Translations under genes and position numbers: made by a program
The notes under the pieces: model-generated
The model's database searches: none
What the model was told of the DNA's origin: nothing
What the model saw: only the letters and a program-made list of their open reading frames with translations
Shown: piece after piece, positions 5,190 through 55,375 of the stretch
How positions within the stretch are numbered: position 1 is the first letter of the stretch
How the letters are laid out: each line of letters begins with the position of its first letter
Source of the DNA: Geothrix sp. 21YS21S-2
Lineage (GTDB): Bacteria; Acidobacteriota; Holophagae; Holophagales; Holophagaceae
Direction: 5' to 3'
Assembly (NCBI RefSeq): GCF_030846775.1
Contig: NZ_CP132910.1
Span: forward strand, 2,824,001 to 2,888,000
Length of the DNA: 64,000 nucleotides

Positions 5190-5273
5190 GGGCTGCCGGC
5201 TAGCCAGGGGCTTCCTCGATACAGGATGAAGGGGGCAGTCCAAAGCAGAAAGATCCCCTTCCATCCCCTGGAT

Positions 5274-5383
5274 CCGGTTCATCCCTGTTTCAGCAGGGCG
5301 AGTGCAGGATTGGGTCGGCAATAGCAGGTAGCTTGCGCGCCTTCTCATCCCTGGCTGGCCCTGCTGGAACAGGGATGAATCGG
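5274..5383. repeat. 26-bp imperfect inverted repeat between convergent genes
   Basis: Arms at 5274-5299 and 5358-5383 are reverse complements at 24 of 26 positions, separated by 58 bp. There is no T-run, and the loop is too long for a classical terminator. It sits between the OmpW remnant and the convergent 4Fe-4S gene and could be a REP-like element or the scar of a small mobile element. Confidence 0.6.
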
Positions 5384-5436
5384 ATTGAAGGGAAAGGGCA
5401 GGATAAGGCCTGGCGGGTTTGCCTGCAGGGCCCAGC

Positions 5437-16010: not shown

Positions 16011-16042
16011 AACATGGGGATCTATTTGGATGAAGGCTTCTT

Positions 16043-16181
16043 TTCTCGGCGATCCTCGGCAACCCCGGCGCCTCGGCGATAGGCTTTTCGCCGGTTGCTT
16101 CGGCGCAGCGACCCGTTGCCCCGCAGCATCATATGAAAAGCCTATCGCCGAGGCGCCGGGGTTGCCGAGGATCGCCGAGAA
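16043..16181. repeat. Perfect 47-bp inverted repeat (large intergenic palindrome)
   Basis: Arms 16043-16089 and 16135-16181 are exact reverse complements over 47 bp, with a 45-bp loop. Each arm contains a roughly repeated CGGCGAT/CTCGGC unit. It lies between two genes of the same operon and has no coding potential on inspection. Perfect arms of this size suggest a recently inserted REP-like or MITE-like element. As RNA it would form a very stable hairpin able to lower expression of the downstream carboxylase genes. Confidence 0.85.
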
Positions 16182-16214
16182 GGGAAAAGAAATGAAATCA
16201 TCACGGGAGGGCCA

Positions 16215-42662: not shown

Positions 42663-44612
42663 CTAGGTGTGGACCGTTTCGGAGGCCGGGATCGCTCGGG
42701 GGGCGGCCAGCCACCGTCCCAGGCCCTCCGGGGACGGGACGTAGGCCGGCACGAGCCGGCGGAACCAGAGGATGATCCGCCGCTGGCGCTCCCCGTCCGG
42801 CAGCGCCGAGGCCTCCTCCAGGGCCTGCAGGCCCCGCTCCAGCAGGTCCGGATCCTGCCGGTCCTGTCCGGCCTCGAACACCTTGGGGTGGATGTCGGCC
42901 TTGCGCGACTCCCGATCGGAGAAGAGCTCCTCGAAGAGCTTCTCCCCGGGACGGGTCCCGGTGATCTTGATGTCGATGTCCACCCCGGCGCTGAACCCCG
43001 AGAGCCGCGCCATGTCCTCGGCCAGGTCCATGATCCGCACCGGGGCCCCCATGTCCAGGGCGAAGACCTTGGCAGTCTCCCCCAGGATCCCCGCCTGGAG
43101 GACCAGCTGCACCGCCTCGGGGATCGTCATGAAATAGCGCACCATGTCCGGGTGGGTGACGGTGATGGGCCCGCCCCGGGCGATCTGCTCGCGGAAGAGG
43201 GGGATGACGCTTCCGCGGCTCCCCAGGACATTGCCGAAGCGCACGCTCACGTACCGCGCCCCGGCCGGAGCGTGGCCGGCGGCGAGGGTCACGAGGTGCT
43301 CCCCGATGTGCTTGCTCACCCCCAGGGCGTTCACGGGGTTGACGGCCTTGTCCGTGGACACGTTCACGAACACCTCCGTGCCCGCGGCCAGCGCCGCGTC
43401 CAGCACGTTGCGGGTTCCGAGGATGTTGTTCACGACCGCCTCCTCCGGATGCTTCTCCAGGTAGGGGACATGCTTGTGGGCCGCGGCGTGGAAGACGGCC
43501 CTGGGCCGCCAGGCCTCGAACACCTGCCGGAGCCGGGCCGGATCCCGAACGTCGCAGAGGGCCACCTCCGTGGCCAGGCCGGGGAACCTGCGGGCCAGAT
43601 CCCCCTCGATCTCCCAGAGGCTGTTCTCGCCGCGGCCCAGCAGGACGATGCGGCTGGGCCCGAAGGCGGCCACCCTGCGGGCCAGCTCGCTCCCGATGGA
43701 GCCCCCCGCCCCGGTGATGAGGGCCACGGAGCCCTCCAGGGCCTTCCGGATCGCCGTGGTGTCGAGGACCACGGGCTCCCGCCGCAGGAGGTCCTCGATG
43801 GCCACGTCCCGCCACTGCGGCTTCCAGGGCAGGTCCCCGACCAGGTCCAGGATCCCCGGCACGATCTTCACCTTCACGCCCAGGGCCTGCACCTCCCGGC
43901 ACATCTCCCGCACCCGCGCGCCCGGGGCGCTGGCCAGGCCCAGGATCACGAGGGAGATCTCCCGGTCGCGCACGAGCTCCCTGAGCTGGCACGTCGCGCC
44001 CAGGACGGGCACGCCCTCGATGCGGACGCCCAGCTTTTCCGGCGCGTCGTCCACGAATCCCACCACCTGGAACCGGACCTTCGGGTGCTCGAGCACCTCC
44101 TGGCAGAGGCGGAGACCCGCTCGTCCCGCGCCCACGATGAGGGCGCGCTCCGAGAACCCGTTTCCGCCCGGCCGGTTCCCGAGGAGCGCGCCCATGAGGA
44201 TCCGGGCCATGAACCACAGGACCCCGCACAGGAGGCTGGCCTCCATGAATACGTCCTTCCCGGCCACCGGACCGTCGCCGCGCAGTGCGCAGAAGGCCAT
44301 GGACGCCGCGATCAGCGCCAGATCGGCGTACAGGATGGCCTTGGCCTCCCGCAGGTCCAACAGCCGGTAGTGCTGGGCCGTCAGCTGCATGGCCAGGTTG
44401 ACGGCCAGCGCCAGGCTGACGAAGAAAAGCCGGCTCCCCGGAAAGGGTTCCGCCTTCCCGCCCCCGCCCTCGGCCAGCTCCCAAGCCAGGCAGGCCAGCC
44501 CCGCGTCCAGCAGCACTTTTCCGCACCGCCGGGCCCAGGGCGCCTTGTGGAGCCGCCCCCAGCCCAGCCCGAAGACCTGTTTGGGTTTCTGGATGCACGC
44601 GAGACCCGACAT
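42663..44612 (-). CDS. Membrane nucleotide-sugar 4,6-dehydratase (FlaA1/CapD/WbpM-like)
   Basis: First gene of the operon, 649 residues. It has about four N-terminal membrane helices, a CoA-binding-like Rossmann domain (ALIVGAGRAGLRL) and a catalytic SDR domain (ITGAGGSIGSE). It removes water from UDP-GlcNAc to give a 4-keto-6-deoxy sugar, feeding a PglE-type aminotransferase. The catalytic segment reads STDKAVNPVNALGVSK: where WbpM-type enzymes have Met four residues before Lys (the S-M-K triad), this one has Leu. AAGGA precedes ATG. Confidence 0.85.
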   Translation of the reverse strand: MSGLACIQKPKQVFGLGWGRLHKAPWARRCGKVLLDAGLACLAWELAEGGGGKAEPFPGSRLFFVSLALAVNLAMQLTAQHYRLLDLREAKAILYADLALIAASMAFCALRGDGPVAGKDVFMEASLLCGVLWFMARILMGALLGNRPGGNGFSERALIVGAGRAGLRLCQEVLEHPKVRFQVVGFVDDAPEKLGVRIEGVPVLGATCQLRELVRDREISLVILGLASAPGARVREMCREVQALGVKVKIVPGILDLVGDLPWKPQWRDVAIEDLLRREPVVLDTTAIRKALEGSVALITGAGGSIGSELARRVAAFGPSRIVLLGRGENSLWEIEGDLARRFPGLATEVALCDVRDPARLRQVFEAWRPRAVFHAAAHKHVPYLEKHPEEAVVNNILGTRNVLDAALAAGTEVFVNVSTDKAVNPVNALGVSKHIGEHLVTLAAGHAPAGARYVSVRFGNVLGSRGSVIPLFREQIARGGPITVTHPDMVRYFMTIPEAVQLVLQAGILGETAKVFALDMGAPVRIMDLAEDMARLSGFSAGVDIDIKITGTRPGEKLFEELFSDRESRKADIHPKVFEAGQDRQDPDLLERGLQALEEASALPDGERQRRIILWFRRLVPAYVPSPEGLGRWLAAPRAIPASETVHT

Positions 44613-45139
44613 GGCGTTTTCCGTCCTTTCAAGGAAGGGGCAGCCTCCCGCCGCTACCCGGAACGGAAGCGCGGCGGCAGTTGGGGAATTAAGCCCGCCC
44701 GCAGAAGAGCCAGGGCCTGGCCTTTGGGCAGGACGAATCAGAATTTTTGTTAGGGTGGATACCCTTGGATTTCTTGGATAAAATTGATTGTTATGACTTG
44801 CAACTTATTAAGGTATCGGCGGATGGTTCACGACGGATACGAATGCAATTAAACTCCAAAAGAAAGGAATGTCAATCAAATCCTGGATTATAAAATTATT
44901 GATTCTGCATAATAAAACAAGTAGGACACCTGATGAATATGGCGTAAGGTCACAGGTTATGCTGGCACATGCACCATCGTGAAGAGTATAAATAGTATTA
45001 GAATTTTCAGAGATTAATAATTATTACAAAAGTAATATACTTGATATTTTATGAAATAGTTGATGGAATTATTTCATTTGTGGTCATATATGACGTATCT
45101 ACACTTCAGAATTTGGTACTTTCCCAGTGGTATATCTTC

Positions 45140-45200
45140 GGCTTACCCGATGGCGCTGATAAGCCATGGAAGGGGTCAAGCCCAGAGGCTACGAGGGCTT
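45140..45200 (+). other. Pair of GC-rich hairpins in the AT-rich island (possible structured RNA)
   Basis: Two perfect 6-bp stems stand in tandem: GGCTTA 45140-45145 with TAAGCC 45160-45165, and AAGCCC 45178-45183 with GGGCTT 45195-45200. They are the only GC-rich stretch in the surrounding AT-rich DNA. Similar TCATATATG motifs flank them (45084-45092 and 45209-45217). A conserved RNA element or DNA-structure signal is possible. I could not match it to a known riboswitch by eye, and its strand is uncertain. Confidence 0.35.
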
Positions 45201-45301
45201 AAAGAATGTCATATATGGCTTAATTCAATTGAGTTATCGAATAAAATGGACCGTCACAAAGGTCAGAATTAATGCAGCGGAATCATGATAATTATCAATA
45301 T

Positions 45302-45320
45302 GAAATTTACAGTAAATTTC
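45302..45320. promoter_or_regulatory. AT-rich palindrome upstream of rex
   Basis: GAAATTTA-CAG-TAAATTTC is a perfect 8-bp dyad with a 3-base centre, about 220 bp upstream of rex. Its ends resemble half of a Rex box (TTTCACAA on the right), but the spacing between half-sites is too long for a standard Rex operator. It could bind another regulator. Confidence 0.35.
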
Positions 45321-45539
45321 ACAACTTTTATTTGTTGTTTATTTTTACACTACAATACTACCGCTTCAATTTTTTTTAACCAAGTCTAAACCTTAATATC
45401 AGTTCCATTTCAGAACACAGCACATCCTATTTTTACTCAATTCCCCACCCGAGCCGTTGACAGAGCGCCGACCGGGGCGATACCTTTAATCATGATTTTT
45501 GTATCGACTCAAAAATCTTGAATCATCCTGGAGGCCACC

Positions 45540-46187
45540 TTGACCGGCCCATCGGTTCCGATCCCCACCCTGAGAAGGCTGCCGCGGTACTACCAGTACC
45601 TGGCGCGCCTCAAGGGTTCCGGCCAGGAACAGGTCTCGGCGGCCCACATGGCGGAGGTGCTCGGCGTGCACCACACGCAGGTCCGCAAGGACCTGGCCAT
45701 CACGGGGTGCCAGGGGCGGCCCAAGACGGGGCACAAGGTGTCCGAGCTCATGTCCGCCATCGAGGGGTTCCTGCACTGGGACAGCCACTCCGACGCGTTC
45801 CTCGTGGGCGTCGGGAGCCTGGGCACGGCACTCATCAAATATCCCGGTTTCGACAGGGCCGGCGCGCGCATCGTCGCGGCCTTCGACGCGGACCCCGCCA
45901 AGGCGGGCCAGCGCGTGGGTGAAACCCCCGTGCTGCCCATGGAGAAGTTCTCCAGCCTGGCCGAACGCATGCACATCTCCGTGGGCATCCTCACCGTGCC
46001 GCCCGAAGCCGCCCAGGCCACGGCCGACCTCATGGTGGGCAGCGGCATCCGGGCCATCTGGAACTTCGCGCCCGTGAACCTGGACCTCCCGGATGACGTC
46101 ATCGTCGAGAACCTCGAGCTCTTCACCAGCCTCGCCTACCTTCTCCGCAGGCTCTCGGACAGCCGCTCCCCGGCGCCCCTGAGCTAG
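45540..46187 (+). CDS. rex: Redox-sensing transcriptional repressor Rex
   Basis: The 215-residue protein has the Rex N-terminal winged helix (RRLPRYYQYLARL, then HTQVRKDLA) and a Rossmann domain with VGVGSLGTAL that binds NADH or NAD+. Rex represses fermentative and hydrogenase genes at low NADH and lets go when NADH rises. Placement directly before hydC-hydB-hydA makes these the likely targets. The start is TTG with an ideal GGAGG at 45530-45534. Two GC hairpins separate it from the hydrogenase genes. Confidence 0.92.
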   Translation: MTGPSVPIPTLRRLPRYYQYLARLKGSGQEQVSAAHMAEVLGVHHTQVRKDLAITGCQGRPKTGHKVSELMSAIEGFLHWDSHSDAFLVGVGSLGTALIKYPGFDRAGARIVAAFDADPAKAGQRVGETPVLPMEKFSSLAERMHISVGILTVPPEAAQATADLMVGSGIRAIWNFAPVNLDLPDDVIVENLELFTSLAYLLRRLSDSRSPAPLS

Positions 46188-55298: not shown

Positions 55299-55375
55299 GT
55301 GCCCATAGCTCAGCCGGATAGAGCAACGGCCTTCTAAGCCGTAGGTCGCGCGTTCGAGTCGCGCTGGGCGCACCA
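55299..55375 (+). tRNA. tRNA-Arg (anticodon TCT)
   Basis: A full cloverleaf of 77 nt with encoded CCA. The acceptor stem GTGCCCA pairs with TGGGCGC, the anticodon stem-loop CGGCCTTCTAAGCCG shows TCT, and the T arm is GCGCG-TTCGAGT-CGCGC. It reads AGA arginine codons, rare in this GC-rich genome. No phage or integrase sequence is seen at its 3' end in this window. Confidence 0.95.

Follow-up and report, generated by a model that had tools for sequence, protein, structure and literature searches.

Miniature inverted-repeat elements (MITEs) are non-autonomous elements. The account of REPINs, another class of hairpin-forming repeat, reportedly comes from Bertels and Rainey in 2011. The operator of the Rex repressor of S. 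aureus is reported to be TTGTGAAW4TTCACAA. REPINs are described as doublets of REP sequences, 16-mers with a spacing of about 71 nt, that form hairpins (PMC3116915).

The locus compared here with these systems lies in a window of 64,000 nucleotides from Geothrix sp. 21YS21S-2 (contig NZ_CP132910.1, positions 2,824,001 to 2,888,000), a host whose genome is a single contig of 5.25 Mb. The six genomes of the genus are designated G000 (the window genome) to G005. The explanation that accounts best for the whole locus, and that we regard as likely, is a divergent intergenic region with a conserved right edge and a changing AT-rich spacer that contains a decayed repeat.

The AT-rich spacer and its counterparts in congeners

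The initial annotation described an AT-rich island of about 770 bp in 70% GC DNA, free of genes and situated between divergent polysaccharide and hydrogenase operons. All of this agrees with the results obtained. The GC content is 36.8% between 44700 and 45470, and lower still between 44731 and 45440 (Table 1), compared with 69.8% for the whole window. Pfam matches support the setting on both flanks: a polysaccharide biosynthesis gene begins the leftward operon, and on the plus-strand side rex is followed by an [FeFe]-hydrogenase operon, as judged by Rex domains and Fe-hydrogenase/Nuo subunits. The longest ORF located fully within 44731-45440 has 70 codons, and none is gene-like. The stretch amounts to ordinary non-coding DNA separating two gene clusters that face in opposite directions.

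Table 1. Features of the spacer and its flanks (positions in the window; a full stop in the strand column marks features not assigned to one strand)
Feature	Position	Strand	Basis or remark
capD/WbpM-like polysaccharide biosynthesis gene, first of the leftward operon	42663-44612	-	PF02719 (Polysacc_synt_2), E 1.3e-106
AT-rich non-coding spacer between divergent operons	44731-45440	.	34.1% GC; AT-rich counterpart at the same place in relatives
Probable AT-eroded copy of the dispersed ~140-bp palindromic repeat ("GC hairpin pair")	45082-45220	.	CM and HMM searches, shuffles, substitution pattern
Left GTCATATATG, inside a 12-bp palindrome	45083-45092	.	
First stem, GGCTTA/TAAGCC, 14-nt loop	45140-45165 (arms 45140-45145/45160-45165)	.	
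Second stem, AAGCCC/GGGCTT, 11-nt loop	45178-45200 (arms 45178-45183/45195-45200)	.	
Right GTCATATATG	45208-45217	.	May be the other arm of an outer stem, or a direct repeat
Sigma70-type promoter of the rex-hyd operon, TTGACA-18-TACCTT	45457-45486	+	Read by eye; not among the sites given by the consensus scan
32-bp palindrome TCATGATTTTTGTATCGACTCAAAAATCTTGA, probable Rex operator (candidate)	45490-45521	.	Comparison across relatives
rex, redox-sensing repressor	45540-46187	+	NCBIfam NF003994 equivalog, 253.5 bits (cut-off 130); solved Rex structures

Within a sample covering 1.264 Mb (24%) of the genome, 44731-45440 is the longest clean AT-rich non-coding stretch, with the exceptions of two stretches reading N, which were disregarded, and of pieces of an AT-rich, gene-poor region at about 4.30-4.31 Mb. 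Genes for the list of AT-rich islands and for the placement of repeats were called by a simple custom script, which misses genes. By this caller, the region G000:C1:4303000-4314000 (L078) is AT-rich and gene-poor, and it may be acquired DNA. The majority of long intergenic regions in the same sample are not AT-rich.

The rex locus is present in five of the six genus genomes, G004 having only a paralogue, 57% identical. Low-GC islands occupy this position in G003 (~650 bp) and G005 (~550 bp), so that with the window genome included three of the five syntenic genomes have an AT-rich spacer there. The spacer of G002 consists of two AT-rich pieces around a GC-rich insert, and that of G001, although syntenic, is short (~350 bp) and mostly of 54-70% GC, the island being nearly gone. 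The insert in G002 belongs to a second dispersed repeat (~188 bp, GC-rich), for which that genome gives 51 match rows; a copy of this repeat is located at 5252-5408 of the window. In G003, a gene for a 753-aa protein, SLBB/Wza-like by eye (L013 3036-5297), starts at the edge of the island, between it and the capD-like gene, and has no counterpart at the matching place in the window genome.

The island sequences themselves could not be aligned. Global alignment to the window island gave z-scores of -1.2 (G005), 3.1 (G002), 1.1 (G003) and -0.6 (G001); the value for G002 may reflect residual homology. Four-fold sites of rex and three hydrogenase genes are identical at 79.5% (737/927) to G005 and at 79.4% (731/921) to G002, and in comparison with these two genomes the spacer sequence turns over faster than the four-fold sites. 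As to the test for conservation of the island proposed in the initial annotation, three of five genomes have an AT-rich spacer in this position, a fourth has a split one, and it has nearly disappeared from the fifth; its sequence is not alignable.

A composition so sharply unlike that of the genome could point to a remnant of foreign DNA (a phage, plasmid or island), as had also been suggested. The search of the island against phages gave no match at E 1, however, and the plasmid search gave only weak matches to AT-rich DNA in 15 records (E 0.2-0.7 in the best 8 of 15), with Borrelia, Campylobacter, Helicobacter and Spiroplasma as sources. The island holds no ORF remnants of note, and congeners have similar spacers in the corresponding position (three of five genomes, the window genome included). 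A foreign origin has very little probability, and the suggestion was not upheld.

The rex promoter region and the operator candidate

The only conserved part of the spacer is its right edge, at and just beyond the end of the region delimited in the initial annotation. The TTGACA hexamer of the promoter is kept in all five genomes with the rex locus, and the second hexamer varies. The palindrome is likewise kept in five of five, with small changes. A search of the genome for its core, GATTTTTGNNNCGNNNCAAAAATC, gives a single site, also with three mismatches allowed. The consensus TTTTGTATCGATACAAAA matches 10 of 31 upstream regions at P <=0.01, five of them from outside the genus (L090, L093, L094, L096, L099), with P-values that are optimistic because the consensus was chosen after an earlier comparison had been seen. 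In several other genera, rex is preceded at a distance of about 50-110 bp by similar TATCGA-centred sites.

The arrangement resembles known Rex systems in that a rex equivalog is preceded by a palindrome between promoter and start codon. It differs from the TTGTGA-type operator in that the palindrome centres on TTTTGTATCGACTCAAAA and not on TTGTGA and TCACAA. Both elements by which a Rex regulon is recognised were found: the Rex protein itself and, upstream of its gene, a conserved palindrome. Judging from the comparison of sequences, the 32-bp palindrome is probably the Rex operator. From established knowledge of Rex we infer self-repression: at low NADH, Rex bound at the palindrome would probably repress the rex-hyd operon, and with it its own gene.

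The earlier idea of a long regulatory region is therefore right mainly for an edge that it did not cover: the region is intergenic between divergent operons, and its right edge has a promoter and an operator candidate kept in five of five genomes with the locus. On the polysaccharide side, at 44735-44749, there is a sequence, GAATCAGAATTTTTG, similar to half of the operator candidate (GAATCAAGATTTTTG in relatives); the similarity is weak (E 0.16-0.55) and may be due to chance.

The hairpin pair and a dispersed palindromic repeat

The two adjacent perfect stems flanked by motifs, which the initial annotation had pointed out, are 6-bp stems between two copies of GTCATATATG (Table 1), with TCATATATG at 45084 and 45209. 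The role of the right copy is ambiguous because the motif is palindromic. Taken separately, these parts are unremarkable, since at least two such stems appear in 10.7% of 300 dinucleotide shuffles of the island and a repeated 10-mer in 63% of the island shuffles. The 139-nt segment 45082-45220 folds better than its shuffles, with z -3.0 on the plus strand and -2.75 on the minus strand, and the best 137-nt window of the island folds better than the best one of every shuffled island (60 of 60).

Such folding would be consistent with a structured RNA, a leader or a small RNA, with a closing stem formed by the two GTCATATATG copies. Nevertheless, the Rfam search, which had been proposed as a check, found nothing in the island and, in the whole window, only a tRNA at 55299-55372 above the gathering score. 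The stems, whose conservation in relatives belonged to the criteria named at the outset, are absent at the syntenic site in four relatives, including a search with a covariance model of the segment, and that model had no match in any of 35 genomes outside the genus. Scans for sigma70 promoters and terminators found promoter-like and terminator-like sites in the island near the shuffle level. A structured noncoding RNA, one of the readings first offered, is highly improbable here, given also the match of the hairpin to a dispersed palindromic repeat.

Another reading makes the two GTCATATATG palindromes, which are separated by 125 bp, operators of a looping regulator. In the host genome the motif has only three occurrences, the present pair and a single one in a different AT-rich spacer, and by our own arithmetic the distance is close to 12 helical turns. 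However, the frequency of repeated 10-mers in the shuffles places the pair at chance level, and none of the spacers of G001, G002, G003 and G005 contains CATATATG. This candidate was rejected as not conserved and within chance, and it is extremely unlikely to be correct.

The covariance model of the segment alone, run on 41 genomes of the family, matched beyond itself at three places only, all in the genus: in G002 (E 1.1e-4), in the window genome (E 0.005) and in G005 (E 0.05). A blastn search of the segment against its own genome returned only itself. All three matched places are long palindromes of one repeat family of ~140 bp, with arms of ~40 nt like TTTTCCTCAGCGAGCCCTCCGCGCCTCCGCGATTGATCCCTTTCC around a variable centre. 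With the copy from the window genome as a query, all six genus genomes matched at E 0.001 or better, with 13 match rows in G000, 80 in G001, 19 in G002, 7 in G005 and one each in G003 and G004; rows overcount copies, as most palindromic copies give two. All rows shown for G001 (loci L215, L221, L226, L230) are the same 28-nt stretch; many copies of a shorter form of the repeat are suggested for this genome.

The 24 candidate repeat loci include seven with no complete palindrome (L213, L215, L221, L222, L225, L226, L230), which were removed ahead of the counts. Duplicate loci were merged (L210 and L216 with L203, L201 with L211, L229 with L220). Among the loci of the sample, L045 equals L228 and L047 (5135-5283) equals L224; L055 was added, and the profiles do not include L056, which consists of two halves. 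In the consensus hairpin of 13 copies, 38 pairs are kept, and for 17 of them one copy or more has a change in both partners. Of the 17 elements listed for the sample (island included, half copies counted), 16 are intergenic with genes called by the simple script, and many lie <=35 bp from a gene end. The exact arm word is found in two of 230 loci, both in the genus, and a plasmid search with a repeat copy gave no match. A well-preserved copy is located at 16041-16182 of the window and scores 95.2 bits with a 24-copy profile that includes it and 43.1 bits with a 14-copy profile that does not.

The family is similar to REPINs in being made up of dispersed extragenic inverted repeats around a variable spacer, with a predicted long hairpin and compensatory changes (17/38 pairs, 13 copies). 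The traits that identify a REPIN, an inverted pair, many extragenic copies and a hairpin, were found, as judged from the repeat sequences, at the level of the family as a whole. The dimensions differ: arms of ~40 nt and a total of ~140 bp, against the 16-mers and spacing of about 71 nt reported for REPINs (PMC3116915). As judged from the same repeat sequences, the elements are also MITE-like, being short, non-coding, intergenic and multicopy with terminal inverted repeats, but no target-site duplication was seen by eye around L201, L202 and L203. The GTCATATATG flanks of the island segment could be a target duplication but are self-complementary. The family was not found in the literature on palindromic repeats of Acidobacteria, in that on REP/MITE elements in Geothrix, or by the letters of the arm. 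By its sequences, it is a modest new family of dispersed palindromic repeats, with matches in six of six genus genomes.

Since long hairpins may match a hairpin model by structure alone, the membership of the island in this family was assessed with sequence-only profiles. With an HMM of 14 copies that leaves the island out, the island strands scored 15.9 and 15.4 bits, compared with 5.7 bits for the highest-scoring non-member in 1.264 Mb. A 13-copy profile of subfamily A (defined in the present analysis), also without the island, gave 15.0 bits; none of 2000 dinucleotide and none of 5000 structure-preserving shuffles scored as high, the best having 1.6 and 8.0 bits. With the three seed copies removed, that is, those found by the island's own covariance model, the island scored 8.8 bits (E about 1.1 in 1.264 Mb), above the best shuffles (2.9 and 7.5 bits; 0/2000 and 0/5000) and above every non-member in the sample. 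Even this test is not fully independent, as it was resemblance to the island that led to the family. Among single copies outside the seeds, L217, L219, L223 and L227 give alignments to the island with z 4.5-7.2; five of 13 single copies (L212, L214, L220, L228, L055) reach no more than z 1.4. By sequence profile the island matches subfamily A above shuffles, though more weakly with the broader 24-copy profile (only 6.7 bits, E 0.31 in the window); the profile of the B subfamily alone did not match it.

The inner arms align to the family consensus (45104-45199), and the second stem shares positions with the best repeat-arm match (AGAGGC..GAGGGCT); for the outer TCATATATGA arms the family has no counterpart. 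Compared with the consensus, the island has 23 G/C-to-A/T and 7 A/T-to-G/C differences, and other copies have 1-10 G/C-to-A/T differences. The apparent homology of the hairpin to the repeat is weak in absolute terms, as the seed-free E-value indicates. Nonetheless, it is very likely that the segment 45082-45220 is an AT-eroded copy of the repeat.

Composition and history of the spacer

In GC-rich bacteria, an excess of GC-to-AT mutation is reported to be countered by selection (PMC2936529), and an unconstrained spacer may therefore drift to AT. Relaxed selection alone does not explain the island, because AT-richness is not shared by most of the genome's long intergenic regions; either many of those regions are younger or constrained, or the present spacer is special.

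The rarity of AT-rich sequence in long intergenic regions elsewhere would suit an island kept AT-rich by selection, a platform for nucleoid proteins or for bending or melting that silences or co-regulates both operons, with the composition fixed and the sequence free. So would the recurrence of the AT-rich spacer in this position in three of five genomes (window genome included), split in a fourth, and a sequence turnover exceeding that of four-fold sites (79% identity to both G002 and G005). However, the syntenic spacer of G001 is short and has about 55% GC, and the H-NS and Lsr2 silencer families (PF00816, PF11774) were not found in the host genome, 150 of 239 candidates having been scored for PF00816. 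We consider such a platform unlikely.

The second longest AT-rich spacer in the sample (L074 18255-18704, also L027) is located upstream of a TonB-like receptor gene and also contains GTCATATATG. Among relatives, the spacer of this locus is AT-rich in G005, over a short stretch only in G001, and not in G002, which means that AT-rich spacers are not uniformly conserved. A composition-based function is kept as a live minority reading. In one form of this reading, composition alone would be selected: in this high-GC genus, a few long spacers before cell-surface operons would be held at ~35% GC with a sequence turnover above that of synonymous sites, as platforms for a silencer unlike H-NS/Lsr2, absorbing repeats that are then eroded to AT. 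This seems distinctly improbable.

In the preferred explanation, the remaining ~700 bp beside the conserved edge is a rapidly changing AT-rich spacer, which probably holds the leftward promoter of the polysaccharide operon. It appears that a palindromic repeat of the REPIN/MITE type was once inserted into this spacer and was worn down by GC-to-AT changes, which would have left the compact hairpin pair. Most likely, the hairpin is now without function.

A candidate RNA has accordingly been taken off the list; the better explanation is that small palindromic repeats, having landed in intergenic DNA, decay there to compact hairpins resembling structured RNAs. The palindromic repeat family, not found in the reachable literature, is a by-product of the hairpin analysis. 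If it were true that the AT-rich spacers are selected for composition alone, this would offer a handle on gene silencing in Acidobacteriota. For the host itself, the locus provides a clear Rex-type operator candidate before the [FeFe]-hydrogenase operon.
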